This document shows positions 31,589 through 38,745 of a stretch of 43,483 nucleotides of DNA, piece after piece. The stretch's first letter is position 1. Every line of letters starts with the position of its first letter. A model generated the notes under the pieces. The model was not told the DNA's origin. It worked only from the letters and a program-made list of their open reading frames with translations, and made no database searches. The position numbers and the translations under genes are program-made. The stretch spans positions 1-43,483 of the forward strand of contig RGCG01000010.1 of assembly GCA_009919275.1 (NCBI GenBank). Reading direction: 5' to 3'. This stretch comes from Actinomycetota bacterium (GTDB taxonomy: Bacteria; Actinomycetota; Acidimicrobiia; Acidimicrobiales; Ilumatobacteraceae).

Positions 31589-31662
31589 GGCGGCTCCTTC
31601 ACTTTCGAGCGTTCACTCTGGGGGTTGCAATTTGTCGACTTGTAGACAACTCTAATACAAGT
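31589..31662. promoter_or_regulatory. acn / gntR divergent control region
   Basis: ACTTGTA (31638-31644) and TACAAGT (31656-31662) form an inverted 7-bp pair separated by 11 bases; the second overlaps the gntR start codon. The first is part of the near-palindrome ACTTGTAGACAACT (31638-31651), of the TTGT-AG-ACAA kind bound by HutC-type GntR proteins. The acn side has Shine-Dalgarno AAGGAG. Autoregulation of gntR and control of acn are inferred. Confidence 0.55.
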
Positions 31663-32392
31663 GCGTTCGATCCGCTATCAGCAAATCGCCGAGGAACTGC
31701 GCGGCCGCGTGCTTGCCGGTGACTTTGCGGCCGGACGCATGTTGCCGAGCGAGTCGGAGCTTTCCGCCGAATTCTCTGCGAGTCGCGTCACCGTTCGACG
31801 TGCGCTCGAGGTGTTGCGTGACGAAGGTCTTGTCGACGCGCGGCAGGGATTCGGATGGTTCGTTGCGGGTGACCCACTGCGTCAACCGCTCGGGCGTCTC
31901 GCCACGATCGAAGAGCAGATGGCCGAAAGCGGCGTCGTATCCGAACGGCGCATCCTCGAGTTCGCGTTCGAGCGTGCGCCGAAGTTCGTGACGCGGGTGT
32001 TGAACACACCGCAGGTGCTGCGCGTGAAGCGTCTCAACATGGCTGACGGCGAGCCGTTTGCCATCGTCACCGTGTGGTGTCCTGCCGACCTCGGTCAACA
32101 CCTCTCCCGTCGAGATGTCGAACAGTCGCCGTTCTACGAACTGCTCGACATCCCGTTACAAGGAGCGACGCAGACGATCGCCGCTGATGCGGCAACCGAT
32201 GATGACGCGAAGTTGTTGCAGGTGCCCGTCGGTTCACCCGTCTTGCGATGCGAGCGGGTGACATCCGATGCGACGGGTCGCGCGGTGTTGCTGTCGCGAC
32301 ATGTCTTCCCGGGGCATCGCACCGAGTTCGTGGTGGACCTGCCGCAGGCTGCGCCGTCGATCGCGCCGACGGGCCTGCGCCTCGTCGACTAA
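31661..32392 (+). CDS. GntR/HutC-family regulator
   Basis: A 243-residue regulator with an N-terminal GntR winged helix (IRYQQIAEELRGRVLAGDFAAG, LPSESELSAEFSASRVTVRRALEVLRDEGLV, about residues 3-70) and a C-terminal UTRA effector domain (about 90-235) containing LRVKRLNMADGEPFAI. UTRA domains usually bind sugars, amino acids or other small metabolites; the ligand here is unknown. The GTG start sits on one of the TACAAGT boxes. Being divergent from acn, and given the same box before icd, it is a candidate TCA-cycle regulator; this is inference. Confidence 0.9.
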   Translation: MRSIRYQQIAEELRGRVLAGDFAAGRMLPSESELSAEFSASRVTVRRALEVLRDEGLVDARQGFGWFVAGDPLRQPLGRLATIEEQMAESGVVSERRILEFAFERAPKFVTRVLNTPQVLRVKRLNMADGEPFAIVTVWCPADLGQHLSRRDVEQSPFYELLDIPLQGATQTIAADAATDDDAKLLQVPVGSPVLRCERVTSDATGRAVLLSRHVFPGHRTEFVVDLPQAAPSIAPTGLRLVD

Positions 32393-32401
32393 AACCCAAA
32401 G

Positions 32402-32452
32402 GGTTCTCGGTGTGTAATTACCCGATTTTCGGGTAATTACACACCGAGAACC
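32402..32452. repeat. 51-bp palindromic element, copy 1
   Basis: Arms of 24 bases, perfectly complementary, around TTT. The ends are GGTTCTCGGTGTG and CACACCGAGAACC, and the inner arm includes TAATTACCCGA. It lies 9 bases after the gntR stop and 14 bases before the convergent nitroreductase stop, so it could end transcription both ways, but it lacks a T-tract and its length and ends match the element at 34086-34136. Confidence 0.8.
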
Positions 32453-32466
32453 GTGGAGAGAGAGCG

Positions 32467-33126
32467 TTAGCGGGAGCCCCAGGTGTCCCAGTGCATCACC
32501 GTGTCGAGAGGCAGGCGCTTGGCCACCTTGAAGTCTGTTCCTTGTGTGTACGCGATGGGGAAGAGGCCGGCCTGTGAAACGGTGTCGTACGGGATGCCGA
32601 GAACTTCGGCGGCTTGCTTTTCGCCTTCGCCAATGAGGTGAATCGTTGTCCACGCCGAGCCGATGCCGCGCTCGCGCAACGCGAGCATGAACGACCACAC
32701 CGCGGGAAGAATCGATCCCCATGCAGACGCACCCATGAAAACGGAGGCATTGTCGAGACGTCCGGTGATGCAGGGCACCAACATCAATGGCACACGGTGG
32801 AAGTTCTCCGTGAGATAGGTCGCGGACTCGGTGATCTTGTCGCGCTGTTCGGCGCGCAGGTCGCCGTCCTCGTACTGGGCGCTGCGCGGGTTCTTTGCGT
32901 AGATCGAGAAGTTCGCCTTGTATATGTCGGCGAGAGCCTTCTTCTTCGCTGCATCCTCGACGATGACGAATTGCCAGCCTTGGCTGTTCGAGCCGGTCGG
33001 AGCCTGGAGTGCGATGTGGAGGCACTCTTCAACGACCGAACGCTCGACCGGTTTGTCGAAGTCGAGGCGTTTGCGAACGCTGCGGGTGGTTGTGAGGACT
33101 TCGTCTGCGGTGAGGTTCAACTTCAT
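32467..33126 (-). CDS. Nitroreductase-family protein
   Basis: A 219-residue FMN-dependent nitroreductase-fold protein. The FMN-binding start TTRSVRKRLDFDKPVERSVVEECLHIALQAPTGSNSQGWQFVIV is typical (Arg and Ser/Asn contacts), and GIGSAWTTIHL with the C-terminal region complete the fold. Physiological substrates are uncertain: the family includes quinone and nitro-compound reductases and enoate-type enzymes. It is divergent from a crotonase gene behind a palindromic promoter, which hints at joint regulation. Confidence 0.9.
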   Translation of the reverse strand: MKLNLTADEVLTTTRSVRKRLDFDKPVERSVVEECLHIALQAPTGSNSQGWQFVIVEDAAKKKALADIYKANFSIYAKNPRSAQYEDGDLRAEQRDKITESATYLTENFHRVPLMLVPCITGRLDNASVFMGASAWGSILPAVWSFMLALRERGIGSAWTTIHLIGEGEKQAAEVLGIPYDTVSQAGLFPIAYTQGTDFKVAKRLPLDTVMHWDTWGSR

Positions 33127-33171
33127 TGGGGCAGTGTGTCACGGTTCCGAGCCACGTGACACACTGGGGCC
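33127..33171. promoter_or_regulatory. Palindromic divergent promoter (nitroreductase / crotonase)
   Basis: CAGTGTGTCACG (33132-33143) and CGTGACACACTG (33155-33166) are perfect 12-bp arms 11 bases apart. Each arm ends so that the hexamer CACACT lies 6 bases before the ATG of its gene, the same geometry as the corA/phosphoesterase region. The hexamer keeps the A2 and T6 of a -10 box but lacks T1. Its symmetry makes a dimeric repressor site likely. Confidence 0.55.
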
Positions 33172-33993
33172 ATGACCTTCGAGCAGAGAGTGACCGTGAA
33201 CGTCAGCGGGGGAATTGCCGACGTCCGAATGAACCGTCCGGACAAGCGAAACGCCCTCGACGGGGCGATGTTCGCCGCATTGGTCGAGGCGGGCGAGGAA
33301 TTGAAGTCACGCAAGGACGTACGAGTCGTGGTCTTGTCGGGTGAGGGCTCGTCATTCTGCGCCGGGCTCGACTTCGGTTCGTTCCAGCAGATGGCGGGTG
33401 GCGCAAAGTCCGACGCCGGGCGCGAGCCAGCCGCCTCCGACATGGCGCCGGGTCGCATCACTCACCTGGGCCAGCAGTCGGCGTGGGTGTGGCAGGAAAT
33501 TCCGGTGCCCGTCATCGCGGCGGTCCATGGGCATGCTCTCGGCGGCGGCATCCAGGTTGCGCTCGGAGCCGACATCCGCATCGTGCATCCCGACACGCAG
33601 ATGTCGGTGCGCGAAGTGCACTGGGGTCTCGTGCCCGACATGACCGGCACGTTGGTGCTTTCGCGCCTGGCGCGACCCGATCTCGTCAAGGACATCGTTT
33701 TCACCGCGCGGGTGTTCAGCGGTCTCGAGGCCTACGAAATGGGGTTGGCAACCCGGATCTCAGACAAGCCCCTCGACGATGCGTTGGCGATGGCGGCGGA
33801 AATTGCCGACCGCAGCCCCGATGCGGTGCGCGGTGCCAAGGCCCTCATCAATCGACTTTTCACCCAGCAGGCGGCCGAGCAGTTTGCCGAGGAACGCCGC
33901 ATCATCGGAGCCCTGATCGGCAAGCCGAACCAGGTCGAGGCCGTCATGGCCAACTTCGAAAAGCGCAAAACGGCTTTCTCCGACCCCGCCTAG
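33172..33993 (+). CDS. Enoyl-CoA hydratase/isomerase (crotonase) family
   Basis: A 273-residue crotonase-fold protein acting on acyl-CoA. It has the CoA-binding NRPDKRNALDGAMF, the oxyanion-hole FCAGLDF (about 62-68) and HGHALGGGIQVALGADIRI. The expected hydratase glutamates are arranged differently: SVREVHWGLVPDMTG gives E148 and D156, 8 apart, as in dienoyl-CoA isomerase (ECH1), but the third ECH1 acid is replaced by Q128. Function may thus be dienoyl-CoA isomerisation or a related reaction rather than simple hydration. No beta-oxidation operon surrounds it; the divergent nitroreductase is its nearest partner. Confidence 0.9.
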   Translation: MTFEQRVTVNVSGGIADVRMNRPDKRNALDGAMFAALVEAGEELKSRKDVRVVVLSGEGSSFCAGLDFGSFQQMAGGAKSDAGREPAASDMAPGRITHLGQQSAWVWQEIPVPVIAAVHGHALGGGIQVALGADIRIVHPDTQMSVREVHWGLVPDMTGTLVLSRLARPDLVKDIVFTARVFSGLEAYEMGLATRISDKPLDDALAMAAEIADRSPDAVRGAKALINRLFTQQAAEQFAEERRIIGALIGKPNQVEAVMANFEKRKTAFSDPA

Positions 33994-34046
33994 GGCGGTA
34001 GCCTGATCCAACCGCTCGGGCCAGCGTCGTCCCCTGTGGCTACATA

Positions 34047-34064
34047 GACCGGACCAGTCCGGTC
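34047..34064. promoter_or_regulatory. Inverted repeat in the gltB upstream region
   Basis: GACCGGAC and GTCCGGTC form perfect 8-bp arms around CA, 54 bases after the crotonase stop and 92 before gltB. It may be an end hairpin of the crotonase transcript or an operator for gltB. Nearby GCTACAT (34039-34045) can pair with ATGTAGC (34101-34107), enclosing it. Confidence 0.5.
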
Positions 34065-34085
34065 ACCAGCCCCTCTCGGGCGAAA

Positions 34086-34136
34086 AGTTCTCGGTGCACC
34101 ATGTAGCAAAAACCGAGTCTTTTCACACCGAGAACC
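34086..34136. repeat. 51-bp palindromic element, copy 2
   Basis: Ends AGTTCTCGGTGCA and CACACCGAGAACC enclose a 25-base core, giving the same total length and almost the same ends as the element at 32402-32452 but a different, non-palindromic core. GTTCTCGGTG (34087-34096) pairs perfectly with CACCGAGAAC (34126-34135). An internal ACCGAG (34112-34117) offers an alternative partner for CTCGGT. It lies 19 bases before the gltB start. Confidence 0.75.
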
Positions 34137-34155: not shown

Positions 34156-37100
34156 GTGACGACGCAAACCGATTCCCCCTTTTACCGTCCCGCGACGGGT
34201 CTCTATGACCCGCGGTTCGAACACGACGCATGTGGCGTCTCGTTCGTGGCAAACATGAAGGGAGTCGCGAGCCGCGAGATCGTCTCGCTCGGCATCGGCG
34301 CACTCTGCAACATGGAACACCGCGGCGCAACGGGCGCCGAGGCTGACACCGGCGACGGCGCGGGCATCCTCATTCAAGTTCCCGACAAGTTCCTGCGCGC
34401 TGTTGCGGGTTTCGAGCTTCCCGAATCCGGCGCGTACGCCTGCGGCATGGCGTTCCTTCCCGCAAACGCCAACGACGCCGAAAAGGCAGTCGAGGCAATC
34501 GAGCGGATTCTCGGCGAAGAGGGCCTGCGCCCGCTTGGTTGGCGCAACGTACCGATCAACCCCGAGTGCCTCGGTAAGACCGCGCGTGACGTCATGCCGT
34601 CGTTCCGCCATCTCTTCGTCACCGATGCCGACACGAACACAACCGGTATCGCTCTCGACCGCAAACTGTTCGTCGCACGCAAGCGCATCGAACACGAACT
34701 GCCCGGCGAGCAGCGCACCTACTTCCCGTCGCTTTCGTCACGCACGCTCGTCTACAAGGGCATGTTCACCACGCCCGAACTCGGCGCGTTCTATCCCGAT
34801 CTGTCCGATGAACGAATGGAGTCGGCGCTCGCCCTCGTTCACAGTCGCTTCAGTACCAACACGTTTCCTTCATGGCCGCTCGCACACCCGTACCGATTCA
34901 TTGCACACAACGGTGAGATCAACACGGTGCAGGGAAACCGCAACTGGATGCGCACACGCGAGTCGCTGATGCAAAGTGACCACCTGCCCGGTCTCGACCG
35001 TGCGTACCCCATCTGCACCGCGGGCGGATCCGACTCGATGTCCTTCGACGAGGTGCTCGAAGTCATCCACCTCGGTGGTCGTTCGTTGCCGCACGCCGTG
35101 TTGATGATGATTCCCGAAGCGTGGGAAAACAACGACCGCATGGACCCGAAGAAGCGCGCCTTCTACGCCTACCACAGCGCATTGATGGAACCGTGGGACG
35201 GCCCGGCGAGCGTCGCGTTCACCGACGGCACGGTCATCGGTGCGGTGCTCGACCGCAACGGGCTGCGCCCCAGCCGTTACTGGGTCACCGACGACGATCT
35301 GGTTGTGATGGCGAGCGAGGTCGGCGTGCTCGACATCGACCCGTCGAAGATCGTGAAGAAGGGCCGCCTGCAGCCGGGCCGCATGTTCCTCATCGACACT
35401 GCGCAGGGGCGCATCATCGACGACGAGGAAGTGAAGGCCGACCTCGCTGCAGCTGCCCCGTACGAGGAGTGGTTGGCCGAGGGCATGGTGGCTCTCGACG
35501 ACCTGCCCGAGCGCGAGCACGTCATCTACAGCCACGACAGCGTCCTGCGCCGCCAGCAGGTGTTCGGCTACACGCACGAAGAGTTGAAGATCATCGTCGC
35601 ACCGATGGCAAAGGCCGGCGCCGAACCCATCGGCTCGATGGGAACCGACACCCCGATTGCGGTGCTGTCGAAGCGTCCGCGCCTGTTGTTCGATTATTTC
35701 CAGCAACTCTTCGCCCAGGTCACGAACCCGCCGCTCGACGCGATCCGCGAGGAAGTCGTCACGGCGGTCAGCCGCACCGTTGGGCCCGAAGCCAACCTTC
35801 TCGCCGAAGGACCCGATGCGTGTCGCCAACTGGAACTGCCGTTTCCGATCATCGACAACCACGACCTCGCGAAGATCATTCACATCAACGATGACGGCAC
35901 GATGCCGCACCTCGCCTCCGCGGTGATCAGCGGCCTCTACCGTGTTGCGGGTGGCGGTGCCGCGTTGCGCGAAGCGCTCGACCGCGTGCGTGCGGAAACC
36001 GTCGAGGCCATCGATGATGGTGCCCGCATCATCATCTTGTCCGACCGCAACAGCGACGCGGCGAACGCGCCCATCCCTTCGTTGTTGCTCACCAGCGCAG
36101 TGCACCACCATCTCATCCGACAGAAGAAGCGCACGCTCGTCGGCCTCATCGCCGAATGCGGCGATGCCCGGGAAGTGCACCACATGGCACTGCTCATCGG
36201 CTACGGCGCGGCAGCGATCAACCCATATCTTGCGTTCGAGTCGATCGACGACATGATCCTGAACGAGGACGGTCTTGGTCTGCACGGCCTTGGTGGTATG
36301 GATCCGGCAAAGGCCCGCAAGAACTACATCAAGGCGGCGGGCAAGGGCGTTTTGAAGGTGATGTCGAAGATGGGGGTTTCGACGGTTGCCTCGTACACGG
36401 GCGCCCAGATTTTCGAAGCGATCGGCTTGTCGAATGATCTCGTCGATGAATTCTTCACGGGAACGGTCTCGCGGCTCGGCGGCATTGGTCTCGACGATGT
36501 TGCGGCCGAAGTTGCGGCACGCCACGCCACCGCCCACCCGTCGCGTCCCGCCGAGCGGGCACATCGCAAGCTCGAACTCGGCGGTGAGTATCAATGGCGC
36601 CGCGAAGGCGAGTTCCATCTCTTCAACCCCGAGACCGTCTATCGCCTACAGCACAGCACGCGCTCGGGTCGCTACGACATCTTCAAGCAGTACACCGCGG
36701 CGGTCGACGACCAGTCGCGCGAGCTTGCAACGTTGCGCGGTCTCTTCAAGCTGAAGACCGGAATGCGGCCGGCCGTCCCGATCGACGAAGTCGAACCGGT
36801 GAGCGAGATCGTCAAGCGATTCTCGACGGGCGCAATGAGCTATGGATCGATCTCGGCCGAGGCACACGAAACCTTGGCGATCGCGATGAACCGTCTCGGC
36901 GGCAAAAGCAACACGGGCGAGGGCGGTGAGGATGCCGAGCGGTTCATTCCGCTACCGAACGGTGATTCGAAGCGGTCGGCCATCAAGCAGGTGGCTTCCG
37001 GGCGCTTCGGCGTGACGAGCGAGTACCTGGTCAACGCCGACGATCTGCAGATCAAGATGGCCCAGGGCGCAAAGCCGGGTGAGGGTGGTCAGTTGCCGGG

Positions 37101-38745
37101 ACACAAGGTCTATCCATGGATCGCAAAGACACGCCACAGCACGCCGGGTGTCGGTTTGATCTCGCCACCGCCGCACCACGACATTTATTCCATCGAAGAC
37201 CTGAAGCAGCTCATCCATGACCTGAAGAACTCGAACCCCGCAGCGCGTGTGCACGTGAAGCTCGTCGCCGAAGTTGGTGTCGGGACGGTCGCCGCAGGCG
37301 TCAGCAAGGCAAAAGCGGACGTCGTTCTTATCTCCGGCCACGACGGCGGAACGGGCGCATCCCCGCTGACGTCACTGAAGCATGCAGGGGCGCCGTGGGA
37401 ACTCGGTCTCGCCGAGGCGCAGCAGACCCTCATGTTGAACGGCTTGCGCGACCGCATCGTCGTTCAGGCCGACGGCCAAATGAAGACCGGTCGCGACGTC
37501 GTGATTGCCGCACTGCTTGGTGCAGAGGAGTTCGGCTTCGCCACCGCACCGCTGGTGGTGAGTGGTTGCATCATGATGCGTGTTTGTCACCTCGACACGT
37601 GCCCGGTGGGTGTTGCGACACAGAACCCGGAGCTGCGCAAGCGTTTCACGGGCAAGCCCGAATTCGTTGTCAACTTCTTCGAATACATCGCCGAAGAAGT
37701 TCGCGAGTATCTCGCTGCGCTCGGATTCAAGTCGATCAAGGAAGCCGTCGGTCATGTCGAAGTGATCGATGCCGTCGAAGCGATCGACCACTGGAAGGCG
37801 AGCGGTCTCGACATTTCGCCGTTGCTCGCCGTGCCGCAGAACCCGTACGACCAGACGTTGCACCACAGCGTCGGTCAGAACCACGAACTTGACCAAGCGC
37901 TCGACAACCAGCTCATCGCCGAGTGTCAGCCCGCGATCATGGATGGCAAGTCGGTCGACATCGCGGTACGCATCAACAACGTCAACCGCACGGTGGGCAC
38001 GATGCTCGGCAGCGAGGTCACGAAGAAGTGGGGCGGTGCGGGACTTCCCGACGGCACCATCAAGATCCACTTCACCGGCTCGGCGGGGCAGTCGTTCGGC
38101 GCGTTCGTGCCGAAGGGAATCGAGATACGCCTCGAGGGTGATGCGAACGACTACGTCGGCAAGGGTTTGTCGGGTGGTCGGCTCATCGTCCATCCCAACG
38201 CCAAGTCGAAGTTCGTGGCCGAAGAGAACGTGATTGCCGGCAACGTCATCGCCTACGGCGCCACGGGAGGCGAGATTTTCCTGCGCGGAGTCGTTGGTGA
38301 ACGGTTCTGTGTCCGTAACTCGGGCGCCACGGCAGTGGTTGAAGGTGTTGGTGACCACGGATGTGAATACATGACCGGTGGTCGCGTCGTGGTGCTCGGC
38401 CCGACGGGACGCAACTTCGCGGCCGGTATGTCGGGCGGTATCGCATATGTGTACGACCGTGACGGAGAATTTGCGTCTCGAGTCAACTACGAGCTCGTGG
38501 AAATCGAGCCGCTCGACGACGACGATCTTGCCTGGCTGAAAAAGACAGTGGAAGACCACAAGCGTCACACCGGATCGGCGGTTGCCGAGCGCCTTCTGAA
38601 CGGTTGGAACGTCGAGATCTCAAAGATCCGAAAGGTCATGCCGCGTGACTACCGCAGTGTGCTCAACGTCATCGCAAAGGCGAAGGCCGAGGGCCTGAAC
38701 GAAGACCAAACCAACGAACGAGTGATGGAGGCCGCCCGTGGGTGA
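34156..38745 (+). CDS. gltB: Glutamate synthase, large subunit
   Basis: GltB hydrolyses glutamine and transfers the ammonia to 2-oxoglutarate, making glutamate. The 1529 residues are the usual size. After a 25-residue propeptide comes C26 in [11 protein letters not shown], the N-terminal nucleophile of the class II amidotransferase domain. The central domain, the FMN/2-oxoglutarate synthase domain ([20 protein letters not shown]), the 3Fe-4S cysteines in [15 protein letters not shown] (about residue 1138 onward) and the C-terminal beta-helix ([14 protein letters not shown]) follow in order. GTG 34156 is preceded by GAGAGG. It overlaps gltD by 8 bases. The upstream region is unusually structured. 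Confidence 0.98.

Follow-up and report, generated by a model that had tools for sequence, protein, structure and literature searches.

Dispersed 51-bp palindromic repeats are associated with an AbiEi-like, DUF559-containing nuclease gene in an actinobacterial genus

A family of dispersed 51-bp palindromic repeats was found to be associated with a nuclease gene of the AbiEi-like + DUF559 kind in the genus studied here, and similar palindromes flank homologous nuclease genes across the wider order. The starting point was a window of 43,483 nucleotides (the whole stretch of DNA that was analysed), in which two of the repeats lie on either side of a nitroreductase and a crotonase gene (Table 1). 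On balance, we favor the explanation that these REP/MITE-like repeats are derived from the ends of a unit of about 1 kb, in which the nuclease gene is bounded by palindromes that the nuclease would bind and cleave, and which would have been mobile.

Table 1. Positions of the two palindromic elements and the surrounding genes in the window.
Feature	Position	Strand	Description
GntR-family regulator gene	31661..32392	+	Terminates 9 bp before copy 1; synteny kept in every genus genome examined
Element copy 1	32402..32452	.	Perfect palindrome of 51 bp with two X arms (X-X), GGTTCTCGGTGTGTAATTACCCG / loop ATTTT / reverse complement; between the convergent gntR and nitroreductase genes
Nitroreductase gene	32467..33126	-	Convergent with gntR
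Crotonase (enoyl-CoA hydratase family) gene	33172..33993	+	Divergent from the nitroreductase gene
Element copy 2	34086..34136	-	51-bp imperfect palindrome upstream of gltB
gltB (glutamate synthase large subunit)	34156..38745	+	Starts 19 bp past copy 2

The two palindromes of the window belong to a dispersed family of fixed length

An earlier note on this DNA had described two 51-bp palindromes with shared ends around the divergent nitroreductase and crotonase genes, and both were confirmed. Copy 1 consists of two fully complementary (100%) arms of 24 bp around a loop of 3 nt, and its single-stranded DNA fold has an energy of −28.5 kcal/mol (z = −14 versus shuffles). Copy 2, which is paired in its outer GTTCTCGGTG/CACCGAGAAC (10 bp) and has a core unlike that of copy 1, gave about −9 kcal/mol (z about −3). 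Searching this assembly (G000; 2.18 Mb, 237 contigs) for the two-arm pattern with a spacing of 5–35 returned seven matches versus none for the reversed control, and allowing up to three arm mismatches returned 19 versus none for the controls. Since the reversed controls gave no match, the two-arm pattern is beyond chance. Furthermore, a covariance model raised the family in this genome to about 22 loci, all of 51 bp, and relatives were found across the genus. The palindromes are thus not an isolated pair without relatives, the outcome that the note had named as refuting its reading, and the proposal that they represent a family of small REP- or MITE-like elements was borne out.

Every copy has the layout arm(23)-loop(5)-arm(23), and each genome has two arm types, X and Y. 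In the species of G000, the X arms are composed of GGTTCTCGGTGTG followed by TAATTACCCG, AATTGACTCG, AAAAGACTCG or AAATTACCCG, and the Y arms of NNTTCTCGGTGC followed by NNNNTGTAGC. The outer half of each arm, TTCTCGG[T/C]G, is constant genus-wide and the inner half differs by clade; the elements end in GGTT/AACC, with flanks that are mostly AG..CT. Copy 2 turns its X arm (34114–34136, read on the − strand) toward gltB and its Y arm (34086–34108) toward the crotonase gene. X-X copies are near-perfect palindromes located mostly in convergent gaps, and X-Y copies occur in all gene contexts. X arms usually start 1–15 nt past a stop codon, and the majority of the dispersed copies are located at gene 3′ ends, often convergent ones, rather than at promoters. 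A perfect Y-Y palindrome, the counterpart of the X-X copies, was observed near one end of c62 in G003 (L138, 670–720).

All exact GGTTCTCGGTGTG arms in G000 lie inside elements, with the exception of one at a contig end (C193, 10092–10109), which is probably a truncated element. Because this contig ends inside an arm, short-read assemblies are probably interrupted at the repeats, and the copy numbers given here are to be taken as lower bounds. The reading of the arms as uptake sequences was rejected, as exact single arms were not found outside elements. We also set aside a reading of the elements as integron attC sites, for which we take their orientation and end sequence to be unfit. An Rfam scan of the window returned only a tRNA, and searching the literature with the motif yielded nothing but unrelated papers, in which the matches were apparently primer sequences.

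The perfect hairpins of the X-X copies, lying mostly between convergent genes and 1–40 bp from stop codons, raise the question of whether the family is an ordinary set of lineage-specific, bidirectional transcription terminators with a standardized sequence. The X-X stems moreover differ from copy to copy and from species to species in a compensated manner (e.g., TAGATACCCG/CGGGTATCTA), as terminator stems might. However, the hairpins are followed by no T tract, and the terminator scan did not pick up the elements. Neither the exact 51-bp length nor the fixed primary sequence is needed for termination, some copies are situated between divergent genes or directly before a gene start (gltB, c9/c10, c35/nuclease), and homologous palindromes specifically flank the nuclease gene across families, as described below. 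We consider termination a quite improbable explanation of the family as a whole.

Gene order around the two copies is conserved in the genus

The order acn-gntR-nitroreductase-crotonase-gltB is kept in 9/9 genus genomes (G000, G001, G003, G004, G005, G007, G010, G011, and G012), the nitroreductase genes of G012 and G010, which were merged or missed by the automatic gene calls, having been placed by tblastn. Copy 2 is located shortly upstream of gltB in all nine genomes, always with a length of 51 bp and a turned-over core. Copy 1 has an ortholog in G003, an imperfect X/Y-like version in G001, and a diverged 51-bp hairpin at the same locus in G011; it is absent in G004, G005, G007, G010, and G012, in which the ends of gntR and the nitroreductase gene are 13 bp apart. 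As the gap is empty in five relatives whereas copy 2 is present in all nine genomes, copy 1 is, on this comparison, lineage-specific and copy 2 ancestral to the genus.

The earlier note had also raised the possibility that the nitroreductase and crotonase genes form a module bounded by the two palindromes. A mobile two-gene module is rejected on the conserved synteny, which includes the five genomes without copy 1. The idea of a bounded module holds to the extent that the elements often occur as inverted pairs of fixed polarity, and that two elements of the general X-outward/Y-inward layout lie on either side of the nitroreductase and crotonase genes in G011.

Two other features of this region were observed. 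An imperfect 21-bp inverted repeat (81%; AGTGTGTCACG...CGTGACACACT) at 33123–33175 spans the divergent starts of the nitroreductase and crotonase genes and is likely the operator of a divergent promoter. A block, GGGCCAGCGTCGTCCC, at about 34020–34045 upstream of gltB is kept in 9/9 genus genomes, its last C being replaced by T in G005, and is a possible promoter or leader element.

Elements persist at orthologous gaps while their arms turn over

Flank comparison revealed that most copies of G000 occupy the same gaps in G003 and G001, and gene-cluster maps extended the sharing of occupied gaps to G005, G009, and G011. At the shared loci the inner arms are clade-specific (TAATTACCCG/AATTGACTCG in G000, SGTATGTCCCG in G005/G009, and AGGTGCA in G011), and at many loci the inner halves change in concert, SGTATGTCCCG occurring with RAAATGTCGCG in G005/G009 and AGGTGCA with AAATCTTGACG in G011. 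Two sub-families coexist. In G003, the c55/c56 gap holds one element of the G000 type and, 4 bp away, one of the G011 type; in G011, a G011-type element is accompanied by a decayed second one in both the c7/c8 and the c54/c55 gap; and the c9/c10 gap of G000, G003, and G001 contains a decayed G011-type element. Judged from these sequences, the pattern resembles a succession of element families that later decayed, rather than one static terminator set. The copy positions are old and mostly vertical, with little sign of recent transposition.

Consecutive elements that enclose a gene or a short segment have their X arms outward and their Y arms inward in 22 of the 31 listings (about nine distinct loci). 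Eight further listings have an X-X call at one end; in G011, some of these calls probably reflect decayed Y arms that were misassigned. The only case of reversed polarity consists of an adjoining relic and a newer element. Apart from the nuclease gene described below, the bracketed genes are ordinary host genes, including trpG/pabA-like and aldehyde dehydrogenase genes.

Inverted pairs with ends of about 51 bp, some of them nearly empty brackets of about 134–167 bp (L121, L177, L185), are what would be expected of MITEs of a DDE insertion sequence with terminal inverted repeats of about 50 bp that is missing from the assemblies. With bacterial MITEs the elements do share their small size, the inverted ends, and pairs of 134–167 bp; unlike them, their ends are themselves palindromes, and no parent insertion sequence was found in the brackets examined. 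Against this origin, the brackets enclose host genes or the nuclease gene, no transposase was present among the bracketed proteins inspected, and the association with the nuclease across families would be left unexplained. In the flanks of the copies and in the occupied and empty gaps, sites that are too diverged for a clear reading, no clean target-site duplication was seen beyond one short match (CTCAAG, L002). An origin from a DDE insertion sequence is accordingly very unlikely.

The interpretation of the inverted pairs as mobile gene cassettes was weakened, as EamA (c8) and other genes keep their order in relatives without elements there. The aldehyde dehydrogenase gene c89 is located beside an X-X element in G000 (L115) and between X-Y and Y-X elements in G011 (L173), and it is missing beside an X-X element in G001 (L142, 3921–4062). 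Its precise excision in G001 was considered and rejected: the junction is inexact, and c89 is still present beside such an element in G000.

One bracket encloses a single-copy AbiEi-like + DUF559 nuclease gene

The bracket between the genes for homoserine dehydrogenase (c35) and c65 encloses one single-copy gene for an AbiEi-like + DUF559 nuclease. The Pfam domains of the protein are DUF559, of the PD-(D/E)XK-type/Vsr-like class, REase_MTES_1575, and AbiEi_1, with the AbiEi-like part in the middle of the protein. The AbiEi_1 match scored 22.1 bits, just below the cut-off of 22.2, PADLOC matched the nuclease to AbiEi with E = 5e-11, and the nearest solved chain is 3hrl, ‘Endonuclease-Like Protein’. 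The gene is present in seven genus genomes at the same c35-c65 locus; where inspected, it has an X-Y element on one side and a Y-X element on the other. As c35 was found in 13/13 genus genomes, absence of the nuclease could be checked at the locus. The results showed that the gene is gone in G002, G006, G008, G010, and G012, with c35 and c65 as neighbors, and that G011 retains a truncated pseudogene. One hybrid element is left at the emptied locus in G002, G006, G008, and G010, and a decayed remnant in G012; the hybrid element is consistent with a deletion between like-oriented 5′ arms. The losses are scattered on a two-gene tree in which several nodes are weakly supported, so that it is uncertain how many times the gene was lost independently. 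Comparison of the G000 and G005 clades gave 42% identity for the N-part of the protein versus 80% for its nuclease part, and these two clades also differ in their inner arm halves.

The covariance model, which was built mostly from G000, G001, and G003, gave 13.8–21.4 matches per Mb in the seven genomes with the nuclease versus 1.0, 7.8, 8.6, 9.5, 10.0, and 18.3 in the six without it (one-sided Mann-Whitney p = 0.011, phylogeny not corrected for). Elements without any arm mismatch numbered 1 in G011, 10 in G012, 13 in G000, 17 in G009, and 19 in G005. Genomes without the nuclease thus tend to have fewer elements, a trend in the expected direction that is not strict, as G002 (18 matches per Mb) and G012 (10 perfect elements) retain elements after loss of the nuclease.

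These features bring to mind the REPIN/RAYT systems (REPtrons), with which the elements share the character of short extragenic palindromes, copies in the tens, two inverted arms, sub-families, and a repeat-flanked single-copy enzyme gene. E. coli genomes with RAYT have higher REPIN numbers (PMC8049555), and here, too, copies are scarcer in most genomes without the enzyme. Such resemblance to REPIN/RAYT dynamics, which extends to the vertical persistence of the copies (PMC8049555), would allow that the repeats were mobilized by a RAYT (Y1 tyrosine transposase) that has since been lost. However, a RAYT-like transposase, for which the earlier note had proposed to look, is absent: PF01797 was found in none of the 13 genus genomes, whereas 5/14 control genomes were positive. 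The elements also differ from REPINs in their fixed 51-bp length and in lacking the GTAG end tag, and the gene that they flank encodes a different enzyme, the AbiEi-like + DUF559 nuclease. We therefore disfavor mobilization by a RAYT, which appears extremely unlikely. CGTC-type REPs have no dedicated transposase (PMC3733652) and resemble the present elements as palindromic repeats without a RAYT of their own; unlike them, the elements carry no CGTC end tag, and a candidate enzyme has been identified.

AbiEi binds two 23-bp inverted repeats that are 3 bp apart, bends the DNA, and autoregulates (PMC7319586). The palindromes beside the nuclease gene could by analogy be AbiEi-type autoregulation operators, and the dispersed copies a regulon or road-block sites of the same protein, with no mobility involved. 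The AbiEi-like domain of the nuclease, the geometry, near-identical to the 2 × 23 bp of the AbiEi operator (PMC7319586), the retention of elements at orthologous gaps, and their scarcity in most genomes without the nuclease all argue for such a role. The likeness to type IV toxin-antitoxin systems and their operators (AbiEi, Rv2827c) lies in the AbiEi-like domain and in the geometry, 23+5+23 here versus 23+3+23. In contrast to those systems, the AbiEi-like domain is fused to DUF559, no AbiEii toxin gene was recognized next to the nuclease gene, and palindromes are present on both sides of the gene as well as at about 20 other loci. An equal palindrome downstream of the nuclease gene, at near-constant spacing, is not accounted for by an operator; most dispersed copies are located at gene 3′ ends, often convergent, instead of at promoters; and the X-outward pairs and the leftover hybrid element would remain unexplained. 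Regulation alone is thus an unlikely, though not negligible, explanation.

Matched palindromes flank nuclease genes across the order

Nuclease matches were obtained in 140/298 genomes of the order. In a first set outside the genus, matched palindromes were found on both sides of the nuclease gene at 14/29 loci (permutation mean 0.55, maximum 3), two of the 14, L239 and L254, being weak or possibly duplicated segments, with another, better pair at L254. The flank test was designed after these 29 loci had been viewed, and the 40 loci fetched later serve as an independent check, in which 11/40 gave matched palindromes (permutation mean 0.43, maximum 2). As a control, 370 genes of 600–1500 bp from a few of the same genomes yielded four matches, all of which turned out to be nuclease genes. 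Pooled, matched pairs flank 25/69 nuclease loci versus 0/366 other genes (Fisher p = 1e-22), the remaining 44/69 nuclease homologs having no matched pair in this test. An association between the repeats and the nuclease is thereby shown.

The matched palindromes measure 39–57 bp in the 23 pairs re-examined (39–59 bp overall), and their sequence is genome-specific. The spacing of the pairs is 906–1072 bp in nearly all cases and 1273 in one, with L245 left out as its two palindrome copies are identical. The flanking palindromes are in direct orientation at some nuclease loci and inverted at others. TTCT occurs at ≥2 of the four palindrome ends in 9/23 pairs, and one relative in another family carries TTCTCGGTGCACCA, as does copy 2 of the window. 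In the DNA sampled from other genera, the palindromes are hardly dispersed: a single additional copy was seen in G033 (400 kb) and no additional one in G023 (280 kb). A REP-like spread may therefore be peculiar to the genus studied here.

A proposed origin of the repeats from the ends of a nuclease unit

Derivation of the repeats from the ends of the nuclease unit, the explanation favored above, can be set out as follows. The elements are probably bound by the AbiEi-like nuclease, by analogy with AbiEi. Two nuclease monomers would bind the two 23-bp arms via the AbiEi-like domain, as AbiEi binds its repeats, and the DUF559 domain would cut at the bound arms; this proposal draws on the 2 × 23-bp geometry of AbiEi and on the divergence of the N-part together with the change of the inner arms. 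Cleavage or recombination at the arms would have dispersed both the palindromes and the nuclease unit, and would now maintain them. Intrastrand (quasi-palindrome) template correction of X-Y copies is the probable source of perfect X-X copies such as copy 1, and a partly converted copy in G001 suggests that this can happen in situ. Where gene ends converge, the elements may have a secondary role as road-blocks or as terminators in both directions.

We also put forward, more tentatively and with somewhat less than an even chance of being correct, that the palindrome-nuclease-palindrome units of about 1.05 kb constitute a class of small mobile elements that is widespread in the order. The nuclease would recognize its own palindromic ends (two 23-bp half sites), and the units would spread through cutting and repair in a homing-like manner without a transposase; in the present genus, the ends would have become REP-like, with an inner sequence that changes along with the DNA-binding part of the protein. 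A conceptual parallel for insertion into palindromes is offered by IS1272, which has stem-loop ends, encodes a transposase, and targets inverted repeats without target duplication (PMC5678879); here, a DUF559 nuclease takes the place of the transposase, and no transposition was observed.

The association suggests a kind of repeat-plus-enzyme element for which the literature searched gave no description. No relevant link of DUF559 to palindromic repeats was found in that search, outside of which subscription journals mostly lay, and no established function of DUF559/REase_MTES_1575 proteins with an AbiEi-like front part was encountered. The matched flanking palindromes provide candidate, testable DNA targets for AbiEi-like/DUF559 proteins. 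If the proposed origin is true, the nuclease would be a second kind of enzyme, besides RAYT, for dispersed bacterial palindromes, which bears on the origin and persistence of repeats that have no RAYT.

At four nuclease loci from other families (L245, L249, L315, and L340), the flanking palindromes are identical or near-identical and in direct orientation, so that recombination between them could remove the unit and leave one palindrome behind.
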